From Crossaster papposus (taxonomy: Eukaryota > Echinodermata > Asteroidea > Velatida > Solasteridae): 64,000 nucleotides of DNA. The first letter of the stretch is position 1; every line of letters begins with the position of its first letter. Below are positions 6,430-63,556 of this stretch, one piece after another. The notes beneath the pieces are model-generated. The model was not told the DNA's origin, did no database searches, and was given only the letters and a program-made list of their open reading frames with translations. The DNA is taken from assembly GCA_037893245.1 (NCBI GenBank), contig JBAIAA010000028.1, positions 744,001 to 808,000 on the forward strand, given 5' to 3'. The translations under genes and the position numbers were made by a program.

Positions 6430-9400
6430 TGAGTTTGGGTCTCATAGTTCTTCCAGCCAGTTGATTTCATCCCCATCCAATCCAGGGGCCAATCTCACGG
6501 CGCTGCAACTTTTGAAAGGTTAAGGGGGAGGGTGTTCGCCGGATTGCTGTTGTACTCAGACGACATAGTGGTCTTCGTAAGGGCGAACACCCTCCCCCTT
6601 AACCTTTAAAACGTTGCAGGCGCATTACATAGACCGAACAGCATGACTTTCCATTGGAACATTCCAGACCTGTTCACGAAAGCCGACTTGGCCTTTGCCT
6701 CTCCATCCAGCTCTACCTGCCAGTAGCCAATTCAAGAGTCGAAAACCATTTAGCCCCCGCTAAGGAGTCCAAACTGTCATTTATACGAGGTATGGGGTAG
6801 GCGTCCTTCAGTGTGCACTCGTTCAGAGCTCGGTAATCTACGCAAAACCGGGTGGATCTGTCTTTCTTCTTAAACCATAACCACCGGCGATGCCCAAGGA
6901 CTGCTTGATGGTTTAATTGTACCTTTCTCTAGTAACTGCCGCACTTTTTGGTCAGCCTTGGCCCTCTGCCAGATAGGGACTCTTCTTGGTTGCTGTCGCC
7001 TGTGACGTGCTGCGCACACATCAATCTTGTGCTTTACTAGGTCATTTTTTCCCAGATTCTTAACGCCCTTCGAAAATACGCCTTGAAAGTCCATCAACAG
7101 TTTATTCACATCTCATGTTTGTTACGATAATAGTATAGCGCCCTCTATCAGTTGAATGTTACACCATAGTTACATGTACCGTTGTTGTGAATCGCTATCT
7201 TGGATGCATGAATGAAGCACAGAATAAACGCAGTACTTTTAGTTATCTTAAATCATCCTCTGGACAGTGATTTATTAAGCAGCATTAAGCTAAACATAAC
7301 AATGTTGACCCTCCGGTAAGTTTTTAATGATCCTGGCATACAAATCCACTAGGTGCCGTGGTAGTTCATCGTCCTCCACACCATTTTGCCGTTCTAAATT
7401 GCTAAATTCGTCCCTTGATACAGCTTCCACGTAACGGTTGGCTCTTCGATCTCTTTTATTGACGACCACCTTGGCCTCGCTGTCTCTGCCTCTCGGAGTT
7501 TAGGAACGATTCTGTTTCAAGCGCCGCTCGTATTGCTTCATCTAAGGACTTTGGGTGGGCCATGAAGATTCCCGCACGCACCTCTGCATCTGGGATGGCA
7601 TCTATTAAATGCCACTTGTTGAGTCTTTCTTGCGAATCTCTTAGGAGCTTGGGGTAGGCCAATCCTGTCAGATGTCGAATGCTTTGTCCGAGTGCTTGGA
7701 GACTTTTATTGACTCCCCTTGTTCTGCCCCTCAGTTCTGCCAGGAATCTCTCAGCCTGCTCGCCGGGACCGAATTTTTCTCCAACCTTGTAGTAAGGTTG
7801 ATGTAGCTCAATTCTTCGCCCTGGACCCCGTCTCCAGGCACTTGCTGGACGTGCCCCTTCAGGCTTGCTGCCAAGAAGAGTGCTTTCTCTGCAGAGGTCC
7901 ATGCTTTAACTGTGGCACAAGATTTTAAATGGGCCTTGTAATCCAAGGAATGTCCCCGGACAATTTGCTCTACTTTGGCTCCCAACACCTGCATGTTGCT
8001 CACCGGAGTAGATATAGGTGCTCAATGGATTCAACATTGGTAATCCGTTATCTGGTTCCCCCAGCTCGCCAATTCACCCACATTGCGGTGTCCTCTGTTG
8101 AGCCTCCTCAAGATGTGCAGTGTTGCTCGCATTACCTGCCTCCTCAACTTAGAAAGGGTTATCTCTTCGATACCGGAATTCAACTCCCGAGTCGACCTCT
8201 TCCACCCGATGTCTCTCCAGTATCAGCCCTGTCTGCTCTAGCCGTTCCATTTTGTCACCTCCATCCTCCATGGACCACAGCACCAGGCTATCTCCTTTGC
8301 TTGGAGGACAGGACCAGTAGACTGATGGAAGCAGAGCCAGTGGGAATGGGTTGTCGGAATGGGGGTGGAGTCGGAATGGGGGTGGAGTCGGAATGGGGGT
8401 GGAGTCGGAATGGGGGTGGAGTCGGAATGGGGGTGGAGTCGGGATGGGGGTGGAGTCGGGATGGGGGTGGAGTCGGGATGGGGGTGGAGTCGGGATGGGG
8501 GTGGAGTCGGGATGGGGGTGGAGTCGGGATGGGGGTGGAGTCGGGATGGGGGTGGAGTCGGGATGGGGGTGGAGTCGGGATGGGGGTGGAGTCGGAATGG
8601 GGGTGGAGTCGGAATGGGGGTGGAGTCGGAATGGGGGTGGAGTCGGAATGGGGGTGGAGTCGGAATGGGGGTGGAGTCGGAATGGGGGTGGAGTCGGAAT
8701 GGGGGTGGAGTCGGAATGGGGGTGGAGTCGGAATGGGGGTGGAGTCGGAATGGGGGTGGAGTCGGAATGGGGGTGGAGTCGGAATGGGGGTGGAGTCGGA
8801 ATGGGGGTGGAGTCGGAATGGGGGTGGAGTCGGAATGGGGGTGGAGTCGGAATGTGAAAATATGGTGGAGTCGGAATACAGGAGGAGTCGGAATGGGAAT
8901 AGGGTGGAGTCGGAATGGGAATAGGGTGGAGTCGGAATGGGAATAGGGTGGAGTCGGAATGGGAATAGGGTGGAGTCGGAATGGGAATAGGGTGGAGTCG
9001 GAATGGGAATAGGGTGGAGTCGGAATGGGAATAGGGTGGAGTCGGAATGGGAATAGGGTGGAGTCGGAATGTGGGTGGACTAATATTTGGTGATCAGATG
9101 TTTCTCAAGAACAGTGGTCATTGCCTTTAATCATCATCATCATCCGTCATGTCATTCCATCATCCGTCATGTCATTCATCATAATCAAGACCCTTAGCAA
9201 TTGTTCTAGTCTTTGGAGAATCAAGCAATCAACTCCCTAAGCGCCCTACCCCCTGCATCGCCTTTTATGCATTTAGAGACCCCATAGACTAAGTTCTCTT
9301 TACCATACGACAGTGCATAAACGCACTTGACCAATCAGATACCAGGATTCCCCAATATGCAAAGTGTTGGTGACTTACAAGGCCTTTAACACATACCGGT

Positions 9401-12400: not shown

Positions 12401-15400
12401 GCGTGCGCCAATGCCTATAAAAGAAGTGGTTTGTCTTTCTGGCAAGCTGGACACTCCATTAAATAGCTAGAGGGGCGTTAACAAATTCATGAAGTGAAAT
12501 TGTTAAACAACATTTTTTAATGTTGACCTTTGGACTGAAAAGTTTAGATTTGTTTACCGGCTCGGGTCATTATCACCGTCCAGACTCCAAACCGGTATGA
12601 AACATACTGTTTAAAATTGGCCAACCACTCTTTTATTCTCTTATTTACACAGCCTTCTGAAAACCTTGGTGCTGCTGATTCTGATGACCACAGTGATTCT
12701 GATTCTGATGATGACGATGACGATGATTCTGATTCTGATGATGACGATGATTCTGATGATGACGGCAATGACAATGATGATGGCGATGATGACGGCAATG
12801 ACAACAATGACAACGATTCGTCTAAAGGTACATATAGCCTTATTCAGAAAAATACCTTGCAAATAGGAAGACCAACCTGAAAGTCGGGGCAGAATTTCAA
12901 AAAAGAACTTCTAATGTACCAGTTTCAAACTGTGTCATTTTTCCACACTGCAGTTTGTACAGTCAACTCTCCTTTATACAAACACTGTTAACCAAGTTTA
13001 CTGAGCCCACTGGCAGGATTATTTTTCATAAAAAAAAGGTTTTTTTATTCAGTAAATTATATTCCTATTTTGATATTAAATGCAACTACTACAAGATGCC
13101 AACACTTAGTTTATTAGCACCGTTATTTACATTTTTTCGCCAACATTCTGTCGCCTACGGCATTTTTTTCTCTTTGCATTCAGGGCGTGATATTAAATGT
13201 CAAACGCTACCCGCCATAAAAGCTGACGCGTTTATATACGTCATTCGCGTGGAACTAAGCCCAGGGACATTGTACGCAGTGATATATAAAAATATTTGCA
13301 AGCCCAGCTGAAAAGCATTATTTTAAGAATTTCAAAAGAGACTAAGGAACAAAAGTTGGAAAATTTGAATGTCAAGAAATTACTGAGCGCAGCTGATAAT
13401 CCTTAGCTGTATGAATTCAATGGAGACAATGGAACTAGGGTGTTAATAAAAATAGGCCTAATCACTAAAGCGTGATGGCCCAATAAAGCGTACAATGTAT
13501 ATACACATCCACCGCGCCAATGAAGCATGCTTGGCAGCGTCGACGTATATTCACGTCCACCGCGTGTATGCCATACATGTCAGTCGTGTATACCCGTCCT
13601 ACGCAAGGCTAGCGGGTAACTTTTGGCATAAATACATGTTAACCGCAACGACCAAGAAAACCTTTGCAGCTTATATAAACCTGACGAATCAAGCGTCATC
13701 CGTGGATAGTAAACGATTTTGTTAGACCTTGCTCTAGACATGTTTATCAGTTAACCGTTTTGAATCTCAAAAAAAGATTCCGTGTACCGGTATATACGTT
13801 ATCCGGCACAAACTGGTTAACCTTGTGACATGCGACCTTTTTTTTTTTACACGAACTTGCGTCCGAACTTTTTTTTTAAGTCGCTTGTATTTCGTGTAAT
13901 AACCCCCATGCTGTTCGTTTTTGTTGGCTTTATATGTCAACACAGCCCTTTCCCACAGGCCAGACACCCAGAAACCAGACACCCAGAAACCAGACACCCA
14001 GAAACCAGACACCCAGAAACCAGACACCCAGAAACCAGACACCCAGAAACCAGACACCCAGAAACCAGACACCCAGAAACCAGACACCCAGAAACCAGAC
14101 ACCCAGAAACCAGACACCCAGAAACCAGACACCCAGAAACCAGACACCCAGAAACCAGACACCCAGAAACCAGACACCCAAACCAGACACCCAGAAACCA
14201 GACACCCAGAAACCAGACACCCAGAAACCAGCTGGTGTTGTTGAATAAGGCAAGGCAACAATAGCATGATTGATTGCTTGGGAAGGTCTGGTGGTAAAAT
14301 CCACACCTCCAAGACCCTTTATGTAAACAATGTACATGTAATGGAATACTCGTGGGGCAGCCTTTGCTTTGCAAAAAGCTGGGTCACCGGTTCAACCAGG
14401 GTTCAAGCGGCACTTACATGTACCATGTTATTCGGCTTGCTTTGAACTAGGAATACATGTAATAAGAGATTTTTTTAACGCAGGATGAAACTAATTGGTT
14501 TTTTAAGGCGAAGTGACTTTTAAAAAAAGGTCGGCGGCACGTCGCAGGGTTAATTAATACAACACATGTTAACATTAAGTGACCAAATGCTTTATTCTCA
14601 GTATTTATCTGTTGGTGATTTAATTTCCTTATGTGTGAAATAACGCCTCAGAAATTGCCACAGACTCACACTTGTAATATATATATCACAAATCAAATCA
14701 ATTAACTGCGTTCTGTACAAGTTGCAGTAAGAAATTAACTGTGATACATACAATTTACTTGGATCGTCACTCTTAAAGTCACATTGTAGAATTCTGCTAT
14801 TTACACACTATGCATGCATTCCTATCCCTATGTGGAGTGCTGTGGCCTCGTGGTCTGGGGAATTTGTAACTTGCAGGTAAAGCTACAGGTTGTGGGTTCG
14901 AGTTTGGCCTGGGATTATGGTGCATGTGCTCTTGGGCAAGGCACTTTGTCACTCATTGCTTCTCTCCACTCAGGAGTAAATGGGTACCTTTGAGGGCAAA
15001 GATGGCTATTGTGATTGATTTAGCTGCCTTGCGCCGAAATGGCTGCATTGAGCTGTATACTCCCAGGGAGCTGAGATGGTACATGTATTTGGAACGTTTT
15101 GTTGTTTCAATAATTAGGGATAATAATAATGTAAAGCGCTTTGATCTTGTTAAAGGCGCTATATAAAAAGCCGTTATTATTATGTATCCATGTGTAAGAA
15201 ATACTGCACAAAATGCCATTGCAAACTTTGTGGCAACATAGGATCCTGAGCTGACCATGAGCAGCCAATCAGCTGCAAACTTTCTAATGAAGATGCAAAT
15301 ACCAGATGGTAGTACCATGTACGCTTGTGTACATGGTGCTGATAATTACCCTCGCCTTTGGCTCGGGTAATTATCAGCACCCAGACTCCAAGTGGTATTA

Positions 15401-24489: not shown

Positions 24490-25256
24490 AAAAATTCTGA
24501 TTAAATGCACGTTTTGTACAAAACTGTACATTATGTAATAGTGCAAGATATCGTACTGTTATCGCTCAATTAATGCATAAGTATAGTTTATTAGTTTATT
24601 AATTTCTTAATATTTTTGTTTTGTCTTTCTTAACCTTTATGAATATTATGATTATTACTAGTTTGGCTGAATATATACTGGGCCTGCCCAGCCTAGCAAT
24701 ATATATTATTCCAACGAGAAATGTTTTGAAATATCCAGTACAGGGGGGGGGGGGGGGGGAGGGGCGGAAGGGGTGTTGCGCAATCATTTACAATCGCAGT
24801 TTGGGTACACTCCATTTAAAAAAAAGGTGATGACCATTAAACATAAATACAAAATCCATGTATACTGTTAAAATTCTCTGAAACAGCACTGAAAACATAA
24901 TAGTTTATATTGAAAGAGTATTTTCAATTGCTGAGGTGCGTAGTTTGAAATAAAATGTGTAAAAATATTACCGACAATTTTTTCCGTTGGTTTATTGCAG
25001 CAGCTAACGTGTATGAATGGGTCCAGGTGGGAATTTCGTTACAAAACGTCTCCCCTAAAACGGCTACAAATATGGACATAATGTGAAAAAAATTATCGTT
25101 CATCCTCTGATTTTATTCCACTAACGTAATAATTAGGAATAGATCTTTCATTCCTGAAAGTTAAATAAAAATCCCTCGGTACATCCTCTAGATATTTGCC
25201 TTTTTTTTTAATTTAAAAAATAAAATGGTTTCTGCCAATTCTCAAACGCGAAAGTT
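24490..25256. other. intergenic, AT-rich
   Basis: Contains a poly(G) run near 24745-24760. No gene or repeat recognised. It forms the left flank of the large transposon, ending with its target site TAC (25257-25259). Confidence 0.5.
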
Positions 25257-25259
25257 TAC

Positions 25260-25600
25260 TAGACTGGGTCAATTTTCCAAAAAAATCAACCCTGAAGGCA
25301 AATTGTGTTAATTTATGGCATACAAGCTTTTTAGGGGTATTGAGGGGTGCTGAACTCAAATTTGCTGTATGCCAAGCTCAAAAATGTCCCATAATGCCTC
25401 AAAATTCAAAAATCCAAGATGGCCGCCACTGTTGAGTTAAAATGTATTTATGTGCATATCTTGTTTACCTAACAAGGTAGAAACTTAAATTAAATTTCCT
25501 TTTTTAGGTAATCACGTATGGGGAATCCAATGCCATAAACAGTTTGAGAATAAAATGTGAAGAAATTGATTTAAACTAATATTTAATGCAAAAAAATATG
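25260..25600 (+). repeat. left terminal inverted repeat
   Basis: Complementary to 31240-31589. It includes GGGGTATTGAGGGGTGCTGA, the CCAAGATGGCCGCC motif and AACAAGGTAGAAACTTAAAT. The outer 30 bp are less well conserved between the arms than the inner part. The motif pair CCAAGATGGC...GGTAGAAA also occurs in the ends of the element at 50652-52956. Confidence 0.85.
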
Positions 25601-25604
25601 TTTT

Positions 25605-26252
25605 TTGTTGAAGATTAATAATAAATCAAAACGATAATATTCAGCAGGTTAATCCTATGTATCCAGGGATGATTTACTTACCTTTCAGGTGTCTTTCTTT
25701 GCAAATAATTATGTTCAGGAATAATGTACTTACTAACTTTGCAATTCTTTTTACATTGCAAATTGTTGAATTGCGGATAATTGTATCAAATACGCCGTAA
25801 TAAAGTAGTTGATGTTAATGTGATGGACCAGAACACCACCATAATTGTTGTTCATTAAAGTTCATTCCACACTTTCACCCGCTGACCTCCGTTATTACTT
25901 ACCGCTTTATTTGTAATGTTTATTTACTAACCAAGGTTTAGCGCCCTCACACTCACAGACGCATAAGCATCCACAGAGGACTCAACCCAAACATGTCTAT
26001 TGTTTCTCTCCATGGTTCTGGTAAATACATGTTTATTATTGTCCTACTGTTCAACCAGTGCATAACACATTAATATGGAATAATTTATTGTTATTTCATC
26101 AAGTATCTTGTGGTTTTCTGTTTTATAAAACATGTAGTTTAGATTGATTTGTATAACTTTGTATAACTTAGTATTAGATTGTATTACTAAAGGTGGTATT
26201 ACCAACTCTTTTTATTGTAGGTCTGAATTAATCTATCATCAGTAACAGAAAA
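25605..26252 (+). promoter_or_regulatory. leader region of the transposase gene, possible 5' UTR intron
   Basis: An AT-rich leader between the left repeat and the ATG. A candidate donor GTAAAT at 26021 (after CATGGTTCTG) and acceptor TTTTTATTGTAG at 26209-26220 would remove an intron. Splicing them in the frame of the ATG at 25994 meets a stop, so a UTR intron is more likely than an extra coding exon. No clear TATA box is claimed. Confidence 0.35.
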
Positions 26253-29200
26253 ATGGCTGAAAGCACAGACCGTACTCGAAAAAGACCAGTGTCACTGGAT
26301 CTACAATTATGCATCATATGCCAGAAGGAAACTAACCAAAAGCTCATGACTGTCAGCAGTGATGGTCTCCAGTCAGTTGATACTATTAGGCAACTCCGGT
26401 CAAAATTAAACAATGACAATTTCCGAGAGGCAACCGATCGACTTACTGGGATATTTCGTACAGACTCACCTCCACCATTCTTGTGGCATAAGGACTGCCG
26501 GTCTAGTTACATGAGTAAATGTAAAGTTGAAAGATTAAGGAGTGCTGGGTTGAAAGAAATGAACGACCAATGTTCGTCTGCATCCAGATCAACTCATCTG
26601 CAAATTGTTAGTTTACGGAGCAAAACACCACAGATAGATTGGAGGCAGTGTATCTTTTGTCAACATGATCAAAAAGAAACGCTTCATCTCATACAAGAAA
26701 TGAAAGTCAGCAGAAGAATATTGGAAGCAGCGAAGTATGACCAAATCTTAAGAGTTCAACTAGCTTGCGTACATGGTCTTACTGCTGCAGATGGGACATA
26801 TCACAGAAGTTGCATCGTCCAGTTCGAACGTAAGACCAAACGCATAGCAAATATATCACCCCAGAGCTCAGATATTACGTTAGCCTGGCTTTGCCAAGAA
26901 CTTGAACAATCAGCAGAGCAAGGTGATATACTGGATCTCATAAATGTGTGGGACAGGTACTGCACAATAGCTAGTAACGCTCAGATAGATATACCACCTT
27001 CATTTCTCAGTCGGAGGAACACATTCAAGGACAAAATAGCCGACCGTCTTGAGGGCATATTTGAAGTTGTTGTACTGCATGATCAGCCTAGAAATGAGCC
27101 TCGTACTGTATTGGTTCCAACCAAATTCCGGCATATTCCAGTATCAGCAATGGTGAAAGAAGGCACCACCGATAAAGTCATCCCTTCATTGGAACAAGAA
27201 GATACTGATACATTCTTGACCATGGTTCACGTGGCATTGCAAATCCGTGGTGACATGTTGTCACATCCCAAGCCAGAAGGGATAGACATCAGCGAAGACA
27301 GGGCAATAAACAGCATACCTGATAGCCTGTACATGTTTCTGAACTTGTTACTAGGTGGTCAGCGTCTACTGGAGGAGGATGAACTGGACGAGGATAAGAA
27401 TGAAGCCAGACGGCGGCTTAGAATCATCAGCATTGCTCAGGATCTTATGTACACAGCCAATGGAGACAAGTTCCTCACTCCGAAGCATATAGGATTGGCC
27501 AGTTCCCTTCATCAAGCTACACGTTCGAAAGAGCTGGTGAACATGTTTCACAAGGCAGGTCATGTCATGAGTTATCGAGATGTAATCAAACTTGACACTG
27601 CGCTGGCAAAGAAGACATTAGAAACCATAGATGACGATGGTGCCGTTGTTCCCCAAAATCTAGTAAGGGGACGCTACGTCCATTTCTCCACGGACAACGT
27701 AGACATTAATGAGTACACTCTGGATGGAAAAGGAACCTTCCATGCCACTCAAGTGGCTGCCTGGCAACGTGGTCCTCCTGAAGATGATATCCTCAGTGGG
27801 ATAGATATTTCTAAGACAGGATCATTCCAAATCCCTGAGGCGATGACTGACATCATACCTGCATCAAACAGAGGAATTAAGGAGCGTCCATTCAGCGGTT
27901 TGATCGCAGCCGATTGTTTTACACAGTCATCTGAGGAATGTCTTTCAGCACAGAATGCGCACGCAACTGACATGGCCTTCATCATATCCCGGTCATCCCA
28001 CAAACCAATGCCTTCCTGGACATTTTACAATCAAAAGGCAAGCACAGTTAAACCTGAGAAAACTACAGTTGGGTACCTACCTATCATACAGAATCCTGCA
28101 TCTGAACTCGAAACTTTGAACACAGTTGTCAAGCGAGTGCTTCATGTGGCCAAATCGATGGAACAAAAGCATGTCGTACTGACAGTGGACGAGGCGCTTT
28201 ACCCAAAGCTGCTTGAATTGAAGTGGTCAGTAGAAGAGTACAAGGACGTGCTTATACCTTGCCTCGGAGGACTTCACATTGCCATGAACTTTCTTGGTGT
28301 AATAGGGCGACACATGAGTGAGTCTGGCCTGAGTGAGCTATGGGTAGGGTGTGATCTTTTGGGATCCAATGCTGCGCAGAATGTCATGAAAGGAAAGGGG
28401 TACGCACGTGCCGTCAGGACACATAAACTTACCCTTCAGGCCCTTTGGCAACTACTCCTCCCACGGCTTTATACGTACCTAGATGGAGTTGATGTTACAC
28501 TGAGAGACGAACTCTCAAATGTCTGCACAACCATAGACGCCGACCACATTGCACAGATGGTCGACAAACTGACAACCGACAGATTTCAGCAGCCCATGAA
28601 AGAGTTCCCGGCAGCTCTTGCAGTTGATGACCCGAATGCTGAATTCTGGTGGAACTATATGACTATGGTCAGCATCCTACTCTGCTTCACAAGAGCGCAA
28701 CGTGATGGATCTTGGGATCTCCACCTATATGCCTTCAAGCGTATGCTGCCATTCCTCTTCAGGTACGATCATGTTAACTACGCCAGGTGGGGTACTGTAT
28801 ACTTGGCTGAGATGTCGGCTCTCCCACCAGAAGTCCTCCGTGAGTTTCAAGAAGGCAACTTTGTAGTAAAACGCAGCGATCGACGCTTCAATCAGGTTTC
28901 GGCCGACCAAAGTACGGAATGGCTAAATGCTACAGGAAAAAAGAGTGGAGGCTTAGTAGGTATCACGAGAATAGCATCCGCACTCAGTAGATGGACATTG
29001 TCATACAATCTGAGAACAGTTATAGCTTCTCAGACAAAAACATTGCTGAGCCTGACAATGGACGATGAAGACGATGAGTACACACACAATGAGTGCACGA
29101 TAAGCAGGATGGAGAAAGACGACTCTGATGAAGGCAGCCTTGTTGTATCAATGGAACAGCATGGCTTGTTTCAAGATGGCAGTGGCAAATTGAAGAACAT

Positions 29201-30872
29201 AATCACCAAGGATGTGGTCACGTCTGTGATTCAAGAATCTCTGCTTAGTGCGGAACACCTCGGACGGGCGCAAATGAAAGTCTTTGTAAACAAACGTCTG
29301 TGTGAACCTCCAGAAAGTAAACAGCACCTGGATCTAAAATCACCCATTCAAAAAAATAACGCCAAGACATTTGCCTCTTTGTACGAAGTCGTGAAACCTT
29401 CCAAAAGCAAGCAAAACACTATCAAAGTGGACAGGAATATTCTACAAAGGCTTTTAACAGCTTATAAAGCAGGGCGTGAGGTAAACCTAGAAAACATCCT
29501 CCAGCATGAACTCATGACCATCCCACTATCTTTGGCCACAACCAGTGGTAGTCTACATTCTACCAACAAGTCTGTGTTAGCAAACATTCTGACACAAGAA
29601 GTCCAAACTCCAGCAAATGTTACACTCGATCAGCCCAGCTGCCTGCTTATTGATGGCCAAGCACTCGTGATGGCAGTTGGAAAGCCGCCTGACATTAAAA
29701 CGTTCGGAGACTATGCCAACACATTTGCTAACACTGTGTTCAAGATGGGAGCAGAATACCAGAGGATCGACGTAGTCTTCGACAGGTACCAAGGAGAATC
29801 AATCAAAGCAGGTACAAGGACCAAACGGAAGCAGCGCCACCGACCGGTACGTCGTGTAATAGAAAATGAATCATCAGTTCCTCTCCCGTCAGACTGGTCT
29901 AGCTTTATGGCTCTCGAGGAAAATAAAGCAGATCTCGCACTACTACTTTCAAACCACCTGATTGAACACAGCCCGACAGATAAACCAGTGGTTGTAGTAG
30001 CTGGTGGGTTCGCCGAAGCGACCACTGTCAAGTCATCTGATCCAGATCTTGAAGTCTCCTCTCTGAGGGCTGACCACGAAGAAGCTGATACCCGGCTGAT
30101 TTTGCACTGCATCCATGCTCATATGGAAACGATAGTTGTGTCAGTACGTGATACAGATGTGCTTCTTTTACTTCTAGCACACTATGACAGAATGGGATGT
30201 ACATCTCTCTACATGAAAGCCGGGACATCGAAGGCTCCAAAGTATTTACCAGTTCATGAAATTCGAAATTTGTTATCTCCTGATCTAGTGGACACACTTC
30301 TTGCCTTCCATGCTGTAACCGGCTGTGATAGTGTTTCTCAGTTTAGTTGCCACGGAAAGAAAACAGCCTGGAAGGTGTTCGAGCAACATCACACTGATCT
30401 GATTGGTCTTGGCAAAGGCCCTCTCACAAAAAACATCGCTATATCAACAGAAAAATTCATTTGTAAGATATATGGCGTGCCCAAAGTAGATACATGCAAC
30501 AAAGCACGAGTCAAGTTGTTTTGTATTGGTCGTGCACAAGAGACTCTGCCACCAACCTCAGATGCAGCAACGTTTCACATCATGCGTTCACACTATCAAG
30601 CAAGTGTCTGGAATCAAGCACACCTGCCATATCCTGATCTTCCTCCAGTGACCGAAATGGGATGGATGCACTTGGACGGTCAGTTAGTGCCACGGCTACT
30701 CTCTCTGCCACCTATCCCTAAAGCTTGCAGGGAGATCACCTCATGTGGTTGTACAAAGGGATGCCTTAGCTTGCGCTGCAGCTGCAGGAAAGTTCGCATG
30801 AAATGCATCGAGGCGTGCAACTGCAGGAAACTTGACGACAACTGCCGGAACACTCATGACGACCAGGAATGA
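26253..30872 (+). CDS. Academ-like transposase with zinc fingers, RNase H-like core, FEN/XPG-type nuclease and CXC domain (1539 aa)
   Basis: One uninterrupted frame. Residues 20-82: first zinc-binding module (C20-x2-C23, H79-x2-C82). Residues 133-187: second module (C133-x2-C136, H184-x2-C187). Residues about 470-960: transposase core of the type DNVDINEYTLDGKGTFH (D481/D484), LTVDEALYPK (D646), YARWGTVYLAEM (W846) and ADQSTEW (D885, E889); which acids are catalytic is inferred. Residues about 1125-1420: FEN/XPG-like nuclease with D1134 (LIDGQAL), D1177 (VVFDRYQGESIKAGTR), E1276/E1277 and D1279 (HEEADTRL), D1300 and D1302 (RDTDVLL), and D1359 (TGCDSVSQF), a spacing close to that of FEN1. Residues 1498-1531: tesmin/TSO1-like CXC cysteines. 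It likely binds and cuts the element's ends in the nucleus. The start is the first ATG after the possible leader acceptor. Confidence 0.9.
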   Translation: MAESTDRTRKRPVSLDLQLCIICQKETNQKLMTVSSDGLQSVDTIRQLRSKLNNDNFREATDRLTGIFRTDSPPPFLWHKDCRSSYMSKCKVERLRSAGLKEMNDQCSSASRSTHLQIVSLRSKTPQIDWRQCIFCQHDQKETLHLIQEMKVSRRILEAAKYDQILRVQLACVHGLTAADGTYHRSCIVQFERKTKRIANISPQSSDITLAWLCQELEQSAEQGDILDLINVWDRYCTIASNAQIDIPPSFLSRRNTFKDKIADRLEGIFEVVVLHDQPRNEPRTVLVPTKFRHIPVSAMVKEGTTDKVIPSLEQEDTDTFLTMVHVALQIRGDMLSHPKPEGIDISEDRAINSIPDSLYMFLNLLLGGQRLLEEDELDEDKNEARRRLRIISIAQDLMYTANGDKFLTPKHIGLASSLHQATRSKELVNMFHKAGHVMSYRDVIKLDTALAKKTLETIDDDGAVVPQNLVRGRYVHFSTDNVDINEYTLDGKGTFHATQVAAWQRGPPEDDILSGIDISKTGSFQIPEAMTDIIPASNRGIKERPFSGLIAADCFTQSSEECLSAQNAHATDMAFIISRSSHKPMPSWTFYNQKASTVKPEKTTVGYLPIIQNPASELETLNTVVKRVLHVAKSMEQKHVVLTVDEALYPKLLELKWSVEEYKDVLIPCLGGLHIAMNFLGVIGRHMSESGLSELWVGCDLLGSNAAQNVMKGKGYARAVRTHKLTLQALWQLLLPRLYTYLDGVDVTLRDELSNVCTTIDADHIAQMVDKLTTDRFQQPMKEFPAALAVDDPNAEFWWNYMTMVSILLCFTRAQRDGSWDLHLYAFKRMLPFLFRYDHVNYARWGTVYLAEMSALPPEVLREFQEGNFVVKRSDRRFNQVSADQSTEWLNATGKKSGGLVGITRIASALSRWTLSYNLRTVIASQTKTLLSLTMDDEDDEYTHNECTISRMEKDDSDEGSLVVSMEQHGLFQDGSGKLKNIITKDVVTSVIQESLLSAEHLGRAQMKVFVNKRLCEPPESKQHLDLKSPIQKNNAKTFASLYEVVKPSKSKQNTIKVDRNILQRLLTAYKAGREVNLENILQHELMTIPLSLATTSGSLHSTNKSVLANILTQEVQTPANVTLDQPSCLLIDGQALVMAVGKPPDIKTFGDYANTFANTVFKMGAEYQRIDVVFDRYQGESIKAGTRTKRKQRHRPVRRVIENESSVPLPSDWSSFMALEENKADLALLLSNHLIEHSPTDKPVVVVAGGFAEATTVKSSDPDLEVSSLRADHEEADTRLILHCIHAHMETIVVSVRDTDVLLLLLAHYDRMGCTSLYMKAGTSKAPKYLPVHEIRNLLSPDLVDTLLAFHAVTGCDSVSQFSCHGKKTAWKVFEQHHTDLIGLGKGPLTKNIAISTEKFICKIYGVPKVDTCNKARVKLFCIGRAQETLPPTSDAATFHIMRSHYQASVWNQAHLPYPDLPPVTEMGWMHLDGQLVPRLLSLPPIPKACREITSCGCTKGCLSLRCSCRKVRMKCIEACNCRKLDDNCRNTHDDQE

Positions 30873-30980
30873 GTACACGTGTGCACATCTACATCTACTG
30901 CAGATATGGTAAACTCATGTAAATTACGTACAATTAAATTCTTGTCATTGCTGTCATTTTACAAACAAATTGCTTGTCAA

Positions 30981-31042
30981 ATGTTGGCTTAGGTAGAAGT
31001 GTGTGTCAGTGTTACTCGAGTATACCTTTGCTAAGCCAACAT
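30981..31042. terminator. 12-bp stem hairpin downstream of the transposase
   Basis: ATGTTGGCTTAG and CTAAGCCAACAT are perfect complements separated by 38 nt. Its position 100 nt after the stop suggests a 3' UTR structure. A role in termination is only a guess, and AT-rich candidates for polyadenylation nearby are weak. Confidence 0.3.
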
Positions 31043-31239
31043 GGGTATTGCATCCATGAAGTTTTCCACTTACTTTAAACCAAATGTAATATGCCCTTTT
31101 AACCAACAAAAGGATGGTCTGTTTATTTGGTTTTTTTGTTTAGATGATCTTCCTGTCAAGCGGTCTATGTTCCTAGTGGGGAAGGAGAGCGATGAGCGTG
31201 CAGATCTTATTCGGTCGAAAAATTAGTAATCTTAAAAAG

Positions 31240-31589
31240 GGAACATTTTGGCGTTAAATACAAGTTTAAACCAGTTTCTTAACATTTTATCTCAAAACTG
31301 TTTGTGGCATTGGATTCCCCGTACATGATAACCTTAAAAAGGTAATTTAATTTAAGTTTCTACCTTGTTTAGTAAAAAAGATATGCACATAAATACATTT
31401 TAACTCGTCAGTGGCGGCCATCTTGGATTTTTGAATTTTGAGGCATTATGGGACATTTTTGAGCTTGGCATACAGCAGATTTGAGTTCAGCACCCCTCAA
31501 TACCCCTAGAAAGCTTGTATGCCATAAATTAACAGAATTTGCCTTCAGCACTCTAAATATGCACATTTTTACAACTTTTGCCTAGTCTA
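31240..31589 (-). repeat. right terminal inverted repeat
   Basis: Complement of 25260-25600. The two arms differ by scattered substitutions and short indels, which suggests the element has aged since its ends were last homogenised, although the ORF has remained open. Confidence 0.85.
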
Positions 31590-31594
31590 TACGC

Positions 31595-31850
31595 CGTGCC
31601 TGTACTGTTCGAGTCTGGCTTTGCGGACGTTCGGGGAGCCCAACAAAGTGCGCCACCAACGTTGAAATGTATCTCATTCATTCTTCCACGCTCATGAGCC
31701 ACACATCTCACACAGTAAATACGTATAGATCGCGCGCTACCTCGAAGCGCACCAGTACATTGAAACACCGTGACGTACAAATTTGCTCCGTGCTCGCTCC
31801 CCGAATTCAGTGATTTATACAACGTCCGCAAAGCCAGATACACAGGCACG
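31595..31850. mobile_element. small MITE next to the large transposon
   Basis: Left end CGTGCCTGT...TCTGGCTTTGCGGACGTT and its complement at 31820-31850 pair over about 30 bp with a loop-out. Flanks TCTATACG and TCTACACG could be an 8-bp target duplication with one change. The left copy overlaps the transposon's last bases. Confidence 0.55.
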
Positions 31851-31854
31851 ATCT

Positions 31855-32400
31855 ACACGAATTTTTTTGGGGCGATGATGATTTTCTGCCATTTTCGTTC
31901 GAGAACAACACGATAAAACGCAAGGGGTTCACAGGCAGATTTTTTAAAAAATTCAGTATATCACTGCTACATCCTTTTTTAACGTATCCATGGAAATAAA
32001 AGAGTGTGTTCGAACATAGAGCATATTGCTCTATGGTTCGAAGCACGATTTTTCACAATTTATCGATTATTATTGCCCTTTTTAGGGGAGGTATTTGTTA
32101 ACGTCGTTTGAGTATTTGTGCACAAACTCCACGCGCATCAACGGTACGTCAACGCTTAATTTATTTCGACTGCTTTTTTCATTTTCAATACAATTTTTGT
32201 CATTGGATGATAAAAATTAAGGTCAATAACAACCTTTTACAACTACAAAAGACAAGATGTTAAGATTGGATGCCAAAAACTCTTTATTTTTCGCGTGAGA
32301 AAATTGTTCCCCCCTATTTTGAGAATGGACGGTACCACAGCGTTTCGCAATCACAGCCTCGAATGTCCTCGGAATTTTACGGGTTCACGTAACCCTTGCG
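31855..32400. other. intergenic
   Basis: No gene recognised. A short inverted repeat with TTCGAACATAGAGCA and TGCTCTATGGTTCGAA is centred near 32026. Confidence 0.5.
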
Positions 32401-32607: not shown

Positions 32608-33028
32608 AACGCACAAAATGATTTCGAGCGCACGAAATGATTTCGAGCGCACGAAATGATATCGAGCGCACGAAATAAAGTATTTCGAGCGCACGAAATG
32701 ATTTCGAGCTCACGAAAAGATTTCGAGCGCACGAAATGATTTCGAGCGCACGAAAAAAGGTATTTCGAGCGCACGAAATGATTTCGAGCGCACGAAATGA
32801 TTTCGAGCTCACGAAAAGATTTTTTCGAGCGCACGAAAAGATTTTTTTCGAGCGCACGAAATCATTTCGTGGGCACGAAATGATTTCGAGCTCACGAAAT
32901 AAGTTATTTCGAGTGCACGAAATCATTTCGTGGGCACGAAATGATTTCGAGCTCACGAAATAAGTTATTTCGAGTGCACGAAATGAATTCGTGGCACGAA
33001 ATGATTTCGAGCGCACGAAATAAAAAAC
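32608..33028. repeat. palindromic minisatellite
   Basis: About 20 units of GATTTCGAGCGCACGAAAT, an 18-19-bp unit whose halves ATTTCG and CGAAAT are complementary, so any two neighbouring units can fold. Variants with GGGCACGAAATGATTTCGAG and AAGTTATTTCGAG occur on the right side. Frames are open by composition only. Confidence 0.9.
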
Positions 33029-48400: not shown

Positions 48401-51400
48401 CTGGATTGGGCCTTGTTCTAGCGATGGTGGCAAGAATGAGGGCAATGCGGTTTCGGTTTATTTCAGCTTTGATGGGGATGTCCTTATATAATTCTGGCTG
48501 CAGTTTTCAGGTAAGTGTGTTAGAAACTCTGAAAGTTAATATACTGCAACATCTGTGCCAGTTGGCCGGTAGAGGCACCACAGCGGTACCACGGTGGGAC
48601 CGTCTGGGGTGCTCCTGCTGGTCCGCTTAGGCAACCCGTTCCGGATCGCGCATACGCCAAACCGGTTTAGACCAGTTTCGAGTGCCGCGTTGTAACGGGC
48701 AGCTTCATGTCGGTGTTTTGACCAGGGAAGTAGTGTTAATAAACGGCCTGAGAATAACCGAAAATGGAAAATACCTGTCTTGAGTTTCCTTCCTGTGTGT
48801 GTGTCGACCCCAGAAACGGTCTACGTTACAATACTGTTTTTTATTCGTTTCCATACATTTACTATACAATCAGTAGGCTTGCCAACATTAAGTCGTATAT
48901 TAAGCCATGTTAATAGCTTTCTCTATGCGCCCTGGTTTTATTCATTCAGGTACTAGGCTCTTTTGAAAACAGTTTCTGAAAACAAATTACTTCTGGAGGA
49001 GCACAGGAATTAAAACTAGAAAGTAACAAGCTGAAAAGAAATTTGTTAACGGATATACTTGTTTAATAGTTACATGTATGTATCACATTATAGTACACTT
49101 GGGCGGACGGGCGTAATACTCCTGGTTCATTTTTACCGGGAGCCGATCATATTTAAGCCCTTTAATATCAGCTCCTGCTTGAAAAGGAAATGGGTGAACT
49201 GTTTCACAGTACCCTGAAAGCTTAGCACTCCTGGCTCATGATAAACATTGCAATTTTAATAACTTTGGCCATGTTCACACAGCGTTTTAGCTAAAACGGT
49301 TTTAGTTAAAATGGTAGATCACCACGGGTTGTCGGTTCAGACACCGTTTTAAGTATAGCGAGTTTTAACTTCATAGCATTTTATCTCTGTCTGGGGTCAC
49401 GTAGAACTTCCGCTAATTTACATATTTCGCACGCTACATAATTCGTGCGCACATCAAAACATTCTGTGTGCGATCACGGTGGGTTTCATCAAGGCCTCCT
49501 CGGCCCACACCGCTACGAGAGCCTTAACTTCCACCCTCGACCAATTCGCACCACGCTGTACTTTTTTTATCCTTTCTCTACACCATTTTCTAAACCTTTC
49601 TCTGCAGTTGATGTCGTTGGAGCATTGGCTATGATGGTAAACAGAATTGAAAGTAGAGCTAGCGTTAATAATCGATGAAAATACACAAATAAACTAGATA
49701 TAATCACGCAACCGAAAGCAGTTTAAAACGCTGCAATGGCGTGGGCATGGTGCATGTGGCGTAGCTACACAATAGCGCGCATGGCGTGCTACCGGAGCGT
49801 GCATGTAAACAACCGTGCTTGTTTACACCAAAAGCGCGCCACAAAAAGAGCTTACGCAACACCAGGTCAACTGCGGCGGCTAAAACGGTCAGAGTTTTAG
49901 CTAGACCCTCCCTCCGAGGTGTTTTAAATCACCGTTTTATCAGCGAGATAAAACCGATTCTGTTAAAACTAAAACCGTTCACACATCGTTTTAGCTAAAA
50001 CTTCTAACCAAATCGAGTTCAACTAGTGTTTTAAGCAAATTTCAAACGGTGTGTGAACGCACCCAGTAAGTCCTTCAGTTTTATAGTCAACCAAACTTGC
50101 CACTGGTATACTGGAGTGAACCACCAGGGATAAAAGAAGGCAATAAACATCCAACAAGAAATGACTTGTTTTTTGTATGGCTTTAGAGATCAAGCCTGTA
50201 CAGTGATCTACCAACATGCACGCCCATACGATGTGCTTTCATGCATAAACTGTATCCCGCTTTGGCTTGAAAGTGTCCCACACTCGCACAGTAACACAAG
50301 GGGCTCCTGATAATAGCAAGAATACAGGCAGTTTCTTCTTGTGATTTCATTTGGAACGTAATTATATTTTTAAAGGCTGTAATCTGCTTAAAAAACTTTG
50401 ACGCATTTAAACAAAAGTTATTTGTTACCATTTTAAACTTTTTTTTTCTTTTTTCTAATTTCAGGCTATCATTGCATACAGCAAAACTGGGCTTTGTCCC
50501 AGACCAGAATGTATTGAGAAGGCATTAAGGCGATACGGACAGTGGTTCCACCGAGGCATTATAATTCCAAGTTCTCTTTATCTTGAGGTATTTTGGATTT
50601 GTACGTATGGTGAAGGTAGCAATAAGATTTGCGGAAGTGCAATATGACATATAGGCCAAGAGCATTTGATCATATTGGCCAAAACCTAGAAATAGCTCAT
50701 AACAAGCTGAATTTTTCAGGATACGTCCGGGAATATCTGTAGAATAACATACTAAAATTTTCCCGGAAATCCCCCTGGAACTCTCTCCAAAATACAAGAT
50801 GGCGTCCAAAATGGCCGACATTTTCCATTTTTAGCATAACTTTGCAACCAAACGAGTTAGAAATACAAATTAAGTGTCCAAACATTAGGTGTCTAAAATT
50901 AGGCGTCATTGGAGTAACGCCGGCGGATCGCCAGTTGGCATTATTTTTGGTAAGATCTTAGGCGGTATCTGATCGCCTTCGAAACTCTAACTTTCCTTCT
51001 TGATTAATGAAAACATTATTGGCGAATGCTTTTGCAGTTGGTCGTCTTTGCGGCGATCCAAGAACCTTACCTCTCACACCGCAGTACGAATGCCACCGTC
51101 ATGAAATCCCTCTTAATCATTACCTCGAGTTCCGAAAACCGACGCAATAGAACCGAGGCCCTTTTTCATAATTTCATGAATGCTCTGCTGTCAAGGCAGC
51201 CAGCCTGCTTTGAATACTCCCTTTTTACAAAGTAAACGTTTCGGCCGCGCTCGGCACTCAGTCAAGAGAACCGGGCGGAAACTGAAAGGAAGGCCAGACG
51301 GGCAGTGGCGCGTCTTGCGGCGGACCGCCAGCCTGCGCCTAAGATCCAGCTATGAGATTTACAACTGCAGCAATTTTAATACGCTATTATAGCTGGATTT

Positions 51401-54400
51401 ATCGCAGCTGCTGGCACCATGCAGACTTAAGTTGCCCTCCAATAGATCCTCGTTAAAGGATTTAAAGTGTACTTATTCAAATTATAGGCCTCAAAAGAGT
51501 CCTGTATTGCTATTTTTATCACTACTTTGAAATTACTTGGTAATTTGCGCGCCGGCTGCCTTCCTTGGTAGCCGTTTCTCAAGCTCCTTTTCCGGAATCA
51601 AACCCTGATTCTCCATTACGTCTTCGCTCAATATGGTATCATGTGGGTGCAAATCTGATGGTACAACAAGACCTGTATAGTTGCAAGTAACTTCTTCTGC
51701 ACCCCAATGCGCAGTAAATGCAGCGGTCAAACTTGCAACAACACTGCACCAAAATTGTGCTAACATCAGTGTTGAAGATATACTGCACCAGATAATGAAG
51801 ATGCTGCACTAGAGGATAAAGGTGAAATTAAATAGGAGAGAGCATGTTATTAATATGATAGCATATTAGGGTAGAAAAGGTTTAAACCATCTTGGTTCTG
51901 TCTAACTCTTATGTTTAGACACTTGCATGTAATATGTATTTCTAACTGGTATGGTTGCACAGTTATGATAAACCTAACTAATGGCAGCCATTTTGGCCGC
52001 CATTTTGGCCGCCATTTTGGCCGCCATTTTGGCCGCCATTTTGGCCGCCATTTTGGCCGCCATTTTGGCCGCCATTTTGGCCGCCATTTTGGCCGCCATT
52101 TTGGCCGCCATTTTGGCCGCCATTTTGGCCGCCATTTTGGACGCCAATCTGATGGTACAACAAGACCTGTATAGTTGCAAGTAACTTCTTCTGCACCCCA
52201 ATGCGCAGTAAATGCAGCGGTCAAACTTGCAACAACACTGCACCAAAATTGTGCTAACATCAGTGTTGAAGATATACTGCACCAGATAATGAAGATGCTG
52301 CACTAGAGGATAAAGGTGAAATTAAATAGGAGAGAGCATGTTATTAATATGATAGCATATTAGGGTAGAAAAGGTTTAAACCATCTTGGTTCTGTCTAAC
52401 TCTTATGTTTAGACACTTGCATGTAATATGTATTTCTAACTGGTATGGTTGCACAGTTATGATAAACCTAACTAATGGCAGCCATTTTGGCCGCCATTTT
52501 GGCCGCCATTTTGGCCGCCATTTTGGCCGCCATTTTGGCCGCCATTTTGGCTGCCATTTTGGACGCCATTTTGGACGCCATTTTGGACGCCATTTTGGAC
52601 GCCATTTTGGACGCCATTTTGGACGCCATTTTGGACGCCATTTTGGACGCCATTTTGGACGCCATCTTAGTTTCGGATACTTATGAGTTTTAAACTTCCC
52701 AAATAATGATTTTATTAAAATCCTTTAAAACATATATTTAGACACTTAATTTGTATTTCTACCATGTTTAGTGGCAAAGTTATGATTAAAATGGCAAATG
52801 GCGGCCATTTTGGACGCCATCTTGGATTTTGGAAAGAGCTCCAGAGGAATTTCCAGGGACTTTTAATACGTTAATCTGCACACACTCATGGACCGAACCT
52901 GAAAAATTCAGCTTGTTATGAGCTATTACTAGATTATAACTAAAACACTTGGCCTAATATCTCTTCTGTGAGTTCATGAGGTGCTAAAAGGACTCAGCAG
53001 GGAAACTCAATGTTTTGGAAAGTGGGAATCCCTCAGTCTCTATCTGAAATGTTGAGTTTGTCCCAGTTCTTTTGGCTGTGTCGTAGGTGGGGCCTCCTGG
53101 AAGCTATGATGAGGCGCAGTAGAACATCCTTCTTGTGGATCTTGGGCTGTCTAAAGAAGCTTGGGCACTTGGAGCTCGATGGCCAGAGATGTCTGTACAT
53201 TGCAGTTTTCAGTGGGGGTCACCACTCAACGCTCAAATTTACATGCAGAATACCGACATGTGTTTTCAACTAAAAATGTGCAGTTTTACCCCTGTCAATT
53301 GTAAAGGACAACTAATAGGAGCCACGGAGTCTAAAATAACAAAATCCAGTGTCTTTTACCGTTTTATTGGTTGAACATCCTCACTTAGGCATGGGCAATA
53401 ATCCAGTGTGTCAGTATTTCATGGACCTAAATTGTAAACGTACTCGCCATACCTGCATCTGCGTGGCATCTTGCGGCATTCTACTCCCGTAGTACGCACA
53501 ATGCGTGCGCCAATGCCTATAAAAGAAGTGGTTTGTCTTTCTGGCGAGCTGGACACTCCATGAATTTGTTAACGCCCCTCTAGCTATTTAATGAAGTAAA
53601 ATTGTTAAACAACCTTTTTTATTTTTGACTTGACTTTTGGACTGAAAAGTTTTGGTTTTTTTGACCGGCTCGGGTCATCATCAGCGTCCAGACTCCAAAC
53701 CGGTATGAAACATACTGTTTAAAATTAGCCAACCACTCTTTTATTCTCTTATTTAAACAGCCTTCTGAAAACCTTGGTGCTGCTGATTCTGATGACGACA
53801 GCGATACTGATTCTGATGACGACAGTGATTCTGATGACGATGATGAAGATGATTCTGATGATGACAATGGTGACGGCGATGACAATGATTCGTCTAAAGG
53901 TACATATAGCATCATACAGCAAAATACCTTTCAAATAGGAAGACAATTAAACCTCAACAGTCAGAGCAGAATTTCAGTTCTAATACAGTTAATACTCGTG
54001 TTTCCTCACAGCAGTTTGTACAGTCAACTCTTGTTAATACAAACACTGTTAACCAGTTCGCGCCGGGATTATTTTAACATCACCGAGCCGACGCGCGGGA
54101 TTATTTTTAACGAAACTTGATCCGAAGCAGGTTCAGGCTGCCAGTACCGGGAAGCACACCCACGCATTTCCGGCCTTGTTCGCTGCTGACAGACATTTCT
54201 GGCCTTTCTTGTGGTGTGTTTATGCGTCATCCGTTATGAATCTGGGGAAAACGTTGCGTTTATATTCGTCATCTGGTTAACCAGCTCGCGCCGGGTTTAT
54301 TTTCAAGTTTACCGAGCCCACTGGCGGGATAATTTTTCATCAAAAAAAAATGTGTTTTTTATTCAGTAAAATATTCCTGTTTTGATAATGCAATTACTAC

Positions 54401-62017: not shown

Positions 62018-63556
62018 ATGTCACGCTCCGTGTACTCAGTTGAGCAGTTACGGGCGTGTTATTGGAAACATGGATGCTCTTTAACCAGACTCCCTGACAC
62101 CATTTATCGATCTCTACGTGATTTAAAACTTTGTATTCGCCCTCCTACACGAAGAAAATATCGTGCTGGTACATGTAAGTCTTTTGCCAATCAATTTGAT
62201 AAAAGATCTGATGGAGATCTGATTCGTACTGTCATCAGCGGTCAGCGTGCGCCATCTTTGGTCAAACGAGTGGCCGATCATGTCAGTGCACTCTCCGTCA
62301 ATACCAGAAATCTGGTTCCAATCAGTTACATGCCTATCTCCACTAATAGGTTGAAGCAAAATAATCTCAGTATCTGTACCCTGAACACAAGGTCAGTCTG
62401 CAATAAGACAACTGATATTTTGGAACTTCTTGCGGAAAAGGATATTGACATGTTAGCACTAACAGAGACGTGGGTGAAAGAAAATGACTCAATAACTGTT
62501 TCGCAGCTTACATCAACCAACTACCGTTTCCTTCACAAACCTCGTCTTGGAAAAATTGGTGGGGGTGTTGGATTATTGCATAAGTCTGGAATGAAAGTTA
62601 AAGTCCTTCCATCTGCTTTGACAGTGTCTTCTCTGGAACACATTGAACTCGGTGTTCACTGTTACAACATGCCAATTCTACTAATGGTAGTTTACCGACC
62701 TCCAACTGTCGCAATGACTGTTTTCCTTTCAGAGTTTTCGCAACTTTTAGAGCAGTTTTTGACGACACCGTCTAATCTTGTGATACTGGGTGACTTTAAT
62801 ATCCATATGGATCAGCCGCAAGTGCGAGATACCATCAGATTTATGAACTTCCTTGAGTCCTGTAATTTGACCCAACACGTCTCATCGCCGACCCACGTAA
62901 ATGGTCATGTACTTGATCTTGTCATAACCCGCACTCCTCTGAACATTATTAGGTCTGTAGATGTTTTTGACCCGGTCTTGTCGGATCATTCGCTGGTAAC
63001 CTGTTCCCTAGATGTCAGCAAACCCCAAAGAGAACGGAAATCAGTGGTCTTCAGAAACCTCAAGAAAATCGACTATGACAGTTTTCGCCTGGACATTCGC
63101 AATTCCACACTTAACGTCTTGGCCAATGATCCACCCAGTTTAGATTTACTTGTGGGATCCTACAACACAAACCTTGCAGCCCTTCTTGATAAACATGCCC
63201 CACTGCAATCAAAGACCTTCACTCTTCGACCGAATACACCATGGTTTACGGAAGCAGTCAGAGCTGAGAAACTCAAACGTAAAAGGTTGGAGAGACGCTG
63301 GCGACGTACACAACTTACTGTTGACAGAGAGCTATATAAGACACAGAGAAATAAGGTCGTGAGGTTGATTAATGAAGCCAAAGCCAACTACTATCAGAAT
63401 CTCATCTCCGAGAGCAAGGGTGATTGTCACCAGATCTTTCGTGTGATCGATAAACTGTGTGTCGTAAGACAGCTACTGCACTACCTGCACACACCTCGCT
63501 GGTGGAGCTGGCAAATCGCTTTGCCTGTTTCTTTCATGACAAGATCCAGAACTTAA
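62018..63556 (+). CDS. LINE protein: N-terminal region and AP endonuclease (512-codon frame)
   Basis: ATG at 62018 opens MSRSVYSVEQLRACYWKHG, a basic N-terminal region common in CR1-like elements. Residues about 113-335 are an exonuclease-endonuclease-phosphatase fold: LSICTLNTRS, LALTETW, VVYRPP, LGDFNIHMD (D259 and N261 region) and SDHSLV (D323, H324). It would nick target DNA to prime reverse transcription. Near 63465 the conserved reading moves to another frame, so the last 30 codons of this frame are not part of the family sequence; this is a single frameshift, after which the RT part continues. Confidence 0.85.
   Translation: MSRSVYSVEQLRACYWKHGCSLTRLPDTIYRSLRDLKLCIRPPTRRKYRAGTCKSFANQFDKRSDGDLIRTVISGQRAPSLVKRVADHVSALSVNTRNLVPISYMPISTNRLKQNNLSICTLNTRSVCNKTTDILELLAEKDIDMLALTETWVKENDSITVSQLTSTNYRFLHKPRLGKIGGGVGLLHKSGMKVKVLPSALTVSSLEHIELGVHCYNMPILLMVVYRPPTVAMTVFLSEFSQLLEQFLTTPSNLVILGDFNIHMDQPQVRDTIRFMNFLESCNLTQHVSSPTHVNGHVLDLVITRTPLNIIRSVDVFDPVLSDHSLVTCSLDVSKPQRERKSVVFRNLKKIDYDSFRLDIRNSTLNVLANDPPSLDLLVGSYNTNLAALLDKHAPLQSKTFTLRPNTPWFTEAVRAEKLKRKRLERRWRRTQLTVDRELYKTQRNKVVRLINEAKANYYQNLISESKGDCHQIFRVIDKLCVVRQLLHYLHTPRWWSWQIALPVSFMTRSRT

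Follow-up and report, generated by a model that had tools for sequence, protein, structure and literature searches.

The 64,000-nucleotide stretch of the Crossaster papposus genome analysed here (hereafter the window; contig JBAIAA010000028.1, positions 744,001–808,000, forward strand) carries a DNA transposon at window positions 25260–31589, with two long terminal inverted arms and a single open reading frame (ORF) for a large transposase. The element has moved in the past, with ends that are precise and target cuts staggered by 3 bp. Very probably it is an AcademX-type cut-and-paste transposon that is autonomous and was recently mobile, and it is best read as intact and recently active, with present activity a possibility.

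Genomic copies and insertion sites

The left arm was used as a query against the 1.02-Gb assembly of the host genome, in which the window lies within contig C28. Twenty places were returned: 16 represented both arms of eight copies, namely that of the window and those on C496, C482, C599, C1104, C591, C279 and C259, one was an arm of the decayed copy on C225, and the remaining three were short diverged pieces. At the sensitivity of this query, no swarm of short non-autonomous derivatives was found genome-wide. Both flanks of each two-armed copy were read, which revealed exact 3-bp target-site duplications (TSDs) in 8/8 copies and 4-bp ones in 0/8. The triplets were TAC (window), TTA, CTA, TTA, GAA, AGA, TGG and AGA, with no strict target motif apparent among these eight. 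The TAC on both sides of the window copy, noted in a first-pass annotation of the sequence, is therefore matched beyond chance and constitutes a real TSD, the other seven copies each having their own matched triplet. Alignment of the copies with their flanks, as that annotation had proposed, fixed the ends and the TSD length on all eight. It had also named ORF copies lacking the inverted repeats as counter-evidence; none appeared, and the four copies with an open ORF are all two-armed.

For the detection of empty sites, the two flanks of an insertion were joined with a single TSD copy and the genome was searched. Uninterrupted pre-insertion sequence was recovered for 5/5 insertions tested with joined flanks (C259, C1104, C279, C28 and C482); outside this count stand C591, C496 and C599, the last with a 72-base piece only and no match among the best 40 rows. 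Empty sites for C259 were found at four places (91–93%, all 287 bases) and for C1104 at three (99–100%, all 196 bases), and for C279, 40/40 of the best rows of 133 candidates crossed the junction at 98–100%. The window copy yielded at least 38 places matching at 93–97% from about base 3 to base 239, across the junction at base 200. These matches span ~195 bases before the junction to 38–39 after it, where the host repeat ends or turns; 38 of the best 40 rows were counted, the other two being the copy's own flanks. The C482 insertion had an empty counterpart on C1449 (L099, 41863–42295), to which the full 396-base query aligned continuously across the junction; it differed from the C482 flanks by some ten substitutions and a single 37-base gap ~120 bases from the junction. 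A second counterpart, on C173, covered 121 bases across the junction. C1449 may be the other haplotype, in which case the C482 insertion would be polymorphic, or a low-copy paralogue.

The window copy is inserted in another high-copy repeat, represented by positions 25062–25259 and 31593–31631. This host repeat looks fold-back, because in its other copies the strand switches for the part past approximately query base 240; the remaining right flank of the window copy likewise matches beside the empty sites on the opposite strand.

Divergence and coding capacity of the copies

Five complete copies differed pairwise by 0.13–0.40%, and the window copy differed from those five by 0.25–0.36%. C28, C482 and C279 retain the 1539-codon frame in full, and C591 has an open frame five codons shorter, so that the ORF is open to its end in 4/8 copies. 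C599 and C259 have one stop each in the frame, and in C496 and C1104 the protein was matched in one frame only in part. Changes off the majority among six aligned copies comprised 13 synonymous, 22 non-synonymous (stops included) and 24 non-coding positions, a spectrum that appears to fit the decay expected after insertion. Recent spread of the family is well supported, and the earlier suggestion that the element might be capable of movement is upheld by the four open frames together with a divergence of at most 0.40%.

Structure of the element

An inverted-repeat scan of window positions 24500–32400 returned one long inverted pair (25292–25594 with 31246–31548; 303 nt, 92% complementary) along with four others of only 22–39 nt. 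In a global alignment of both ends, the outermost 32–41 nt of the arms were unlike each other except for the tip TAGACT.GG. The arms of about 330 bp described in the first-pass annotation thus hold as to length, but their outer tenth forms no clean inverted repeat; the single open 1539-codon ORF was recovered as described. The parts of the element are compiled in Table 1. The conserved residues listed there were read from alignment A1, whose nine rows represent five families, rows within one family being 99–100% identical.

Table 1. Parts of the transposon in window coordinates, with residue ranges (res) of the encoded protein.
Feature	Position	Strand	Remarks
Whole element	25260–31589 (contig C28)		Full-length DNA transposon with both arms and open ORF
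Left TSD, TAC	25257–25259		Identical to 31590–31592; 3-bp TSD in 8/8 copies; uninterrupted empty sites
Left terminal inverted arm, 335 nt	25260–25594	+	Tip TAGACTGGG; TAGACTGG common to related families
Intronless single ORF, 1539 aa	26253–30872	+	ATG to stop; open in three further copies, one of them five codons shorter
N-terminal region, res 1–439	26253–27569	+	Two CxxCQ...WH/YHxxC motifs seen in alignment A1
Transposase core, res 440–945	27570–29087	+	DUF6589 at 595–894; candidate triad D481 (or D484), D646, E889, plus H675
XPG/FEN-like 5' nuclease domain (predicted), res 1105–1466	29565–30650	+	Acids D1134, D1177, E1277, D1279, D1300, D1302, D1359
C-terminal cysteine cluster, res 1498–1524	30744–30824	+	Eight invariant Cys in alignment A1
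Right terminal inverted arm, 344 nt	31246–31589	-	Tip TAGACTAGG read inward
Right TSD, TAC	31590–31592		From reading of the flank

Transposase core and cysteine-rich regions

DUF6589 was the only domain to pass its Pfam cut-off in the 1539-aa protein (32.2 bits against 27), and Pfam gave no match in the N-terminal region. Assignment of the core by profile to an unrelated cellular family, the other outcome that had been named as adverse, did not occur. Nothing was found in sequence searches of the PDB or in NCBIfam, and a viral-contig pattern scan produced 58 pattern matches, of which 0 were confirmed. In alignment A1, D646, H675 and E889 were identical in 9/9 rows, and D481 and D484 in the 8/8 rows covering them.

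A structural model of the core matched PDB entries weakly, the first 10 of the best 50 rows being Hermes (6) and RAG1 (4), and Foldseek with this model gave no match at E ≤ 0.001. DSSP assigned strands to model positions 37–46, 57–67 and 165–174, a helix to 179–196 and strands to 202–206 and 228–232, followed by a helical stretch and then a helix at 445–458 that contains E889, around which confidence was low. An RNase H-like transposase would show such an order, and the core may adopt an RNase H-like DDE fold in which the triad residues are candidates. The N-terminal motifs are probably zinc-binding and may bind the element ends. For the C-terminal cysteine cluster, modelled at a predicted local distance difference test (pLDDT) score below 50, a Tesmin/TSO1 CXC label was considered and rejected, as Pfam TCR/CXC scored 8.5 bits, below its cut-off of 23.5.

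Predicted nuclease domain

The model of the C-terminal region retrieved FEN/EXO1/XPG-type nucleases in all of the best 50 rows, and the seven acidic positions of the domain follow the same order as in the FEN1/EXO1/XPG nucleases. A FEN1 profile was built from 16 archaeal FEN1 out of 53 loci returned; L064 and L074, with a stop in the stretch, were left out, as were L073, L076, L078 and L086, which made the set smaller. Against this profile, hhalign gave the C-terminal region a probability of 0.5%, and an off-domain control with the transposase core reached 1.1%. For the trimmed nuclease domain, column shuffles reached the local score in 115/150 cases and the global score in 37/143, and a forced long alignment was roughly collinear over both domains and not significant. 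As no significant sequence-profile link to FEN1 was obtained, the claim of a nuclease rests on fold and acid order, which support a predicted XPG-type identity. The XPG-type nuclease anticipated in the first-pass annotation is thus retained by fold but finds no backing from sequence profiles. A further difference from the FEN1/EXO1/XPG nucleases is that the element's domain is fused to a transposase.

Related families and other DUF6589 loci

A search of the genome with the protein, in which 30 of 2621 first-look candidates were scored, returned at least 35 matches, including families at about 48–53% and 38–40% identity. Three related families, at 48–55% protein identity, carry the tip TAGACTGG. 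Both ends were read for six related elements, and a 3-bp TSD was present in 4/6: L017, L018, L022 and L023 carry TAGACTGGG as the tip of either end, with TSDs CTT, TAT, TCT and TAA, and L019 and L020 have similar tips, with one change in L020, and no TSD. These six form three groups by the bases that follow the tip. Two lineages are more distant, one on C102 (40% identity) and one on C435/C800 (38%). Six copies of the C102 family (query L032) share a start at precisely residue 614 and extend to residue 1578; the shared internal boundary is perhaps an intron or a deletion form that has spread. L028 (C31) and L029 (C864), which have stops at the same three positions, are haplotigs or a recent duplication.

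A genome search for DUF6589 gave at least 112 matches from 102/334 candidates scored, several of which may be exons of one gene; the list is incomplete, since the window's own match is missing from it. Five loci (L093 and L095–L098) were hand-picked from this list, not drawn at random. At L093 (C111) and L096 (C481), Helicase_C (2.7e-10 and 3.3e-13) was matched in an ORF beside DUF6589 on the opposite strand, and their DUF6589 proteins have PHD-finger matches below cut-off; we take both to be AcademH-like loci. L098 combines a DUF6589 ORF (23% identity) with a nuclease-like ORF (29%), and at L095 and L097 no partner was recognised in a scan that covered their DUF6589 ORF only.

Classification

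The nuclease of AcademX elements is of the XPG type, and Academ elements have terminal inverted repeats; such repeats are present here, with a tip common to the related families. In PMC10045372, AcademH is described as making 9 or 10 bp TSDs and AcademX 3 or 4 bp, a difference tied to the encoded helicase or nuclease, and Zator as combining 3-bp TSDs with an ISAzo13-like transposase. PMC10294476 places Academ in molluscs largely in bivalves and puts the average length of curated bivalve elements at 5565 bp. The window element is long, encodes a predicted nuclease of its own, and makes a TSD within the AcademX range given in PMC10045372; this is a likeness to published descriptions. AcademH is characterised in PMC10045372 by a helicase and the longer duplications, whereas the window element has a predicted XPG-type nuclease and 3 bp, and Pfam found no helicase match in its protein. 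DUF6589 is nevertheless common to the window core and the helicase-linked loci of this genome, and may link the core to both Academ branches, via the Pfam model only. Academ membership is likely, judged by published descriptions and Pfam, and the element looks like a new family of this known kind. In the collection of papers searched, none named DUF6589 and none combined Academ, XPG, transposon and transposase as whole words.

The first-pass annotation had proposed an Academ-type or sister superfamily, and this wording stays, with Academ favoured. A sister superfamily would imply that a DUF6589 lineage outside Academ joined an XPG-type nuclease independently and arrived at a 3-bp TSD by coincidence. 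Several points weigh on that side and against AcademX: the relation to Academ is known by description, and homology with the helicase-side protein was detected via Pfam and is absent in BLASTP, where the window protein against L093 gave nothing significant. We nonetheless regard this alternative as unlikely, as both TSD length and nuclease fit the AcademX description in PMC10045372, DUF6589 stands beside a helicase at other loci of the same genome, and a DUF6589 ORF and a nuclease-like ORF occur together in the distant relative L098.

TSD length would also suit an EnSpm/CACTA-like or Zator element. EnSpm/CACTA elements have CACTA-type termini, in contrast to the tip TAGACTGGG; DUF6589 was the sole Pfam assignment, and to our knowledge an XPG-type nuclease is no feature of either superfamily, which makes such an origin highly improbable. 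The core model had Hermes, a hAT transposase, among its top structural hits, but hAT elements make 8-bp TSDs and all eight copies here have 3 bp. The long open frame and intact domains might be those of a domesticated host gene, or of a segmental duplication flanked by chance inverted repeats. We give this reading almost no credence: the empty sites contradict it, as do eight dispersed copies with precise ends, each with its TSD.

Other features of the window

Elsewhere in the window, Rfam matched a eukaryotic small-subunit rRNA at 50872–51976 on the minus strand (281 bits, diverged or partial), which overlaps a two-copy 494-bp duplication (51652–52640) and adjoins arrays of the 12-bp TGGCCGCCATTT. 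Minisatellites of 17, 22, 15 and 19 bp lie at 8353–9071, 13960–14231 and 32610–33021, and the long ORFs that they create are probably spurious. By eye, a 512-aa ORF at 62018–63556 on the plus strand resembles the endonuclease portion of a non-long-terminal-repeat retrotransposon.

Proposed mechanism and significance

In the mechanism that we envisage, a single protein would bind the long inverted arms, its probable N-terminal zinc-binding motifs recognising the ends. The putative DDE core (D481/D646/E889) would then cut the 3' ends and join them to the target with a 3-bp stagger, which repair would turn into the TSD observed. The fused XPG/FEN-like domain would most likely act on the 5' strands, either by cleaving the non-transferred strand during excision or by removing 5' flaps at integration gaps, two roles that appear about equally probable. 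One reading, which we offer tentatively and with some doubt, is that of a two-nuclease transposase in one polypeptide, in which the 3' cuts would fall to the DDE core and the flap-endonuclease domain would cut the non-transferred strand on its 5' side. The plainer alternative is that this domain trims flaps once integration has taken place. In Tn7, the 5' cut at excision is made by TnsA. If true, a two-nuclease transposase would be a eukaryotic counterpart of the TnsB–TnsA division of labour, with an unrelated nuclease fold.

We know of no Academ element for which transposition or biochemistry has been shown. With its near-identical natural copies, some of them with uninterrupted frames, and with exact ends and known empty sites, this family would allow excision and integration to be assayed directly. 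Foremost is the question of why a transposase would carry its own repair-type flap nuclease. A further one is why nuclease-linked Academ lineages (3 or 4 bp) and helicase-linked ones (9 or 10 bp) differ in target stagger; this single genome seems to harbour both kinds.
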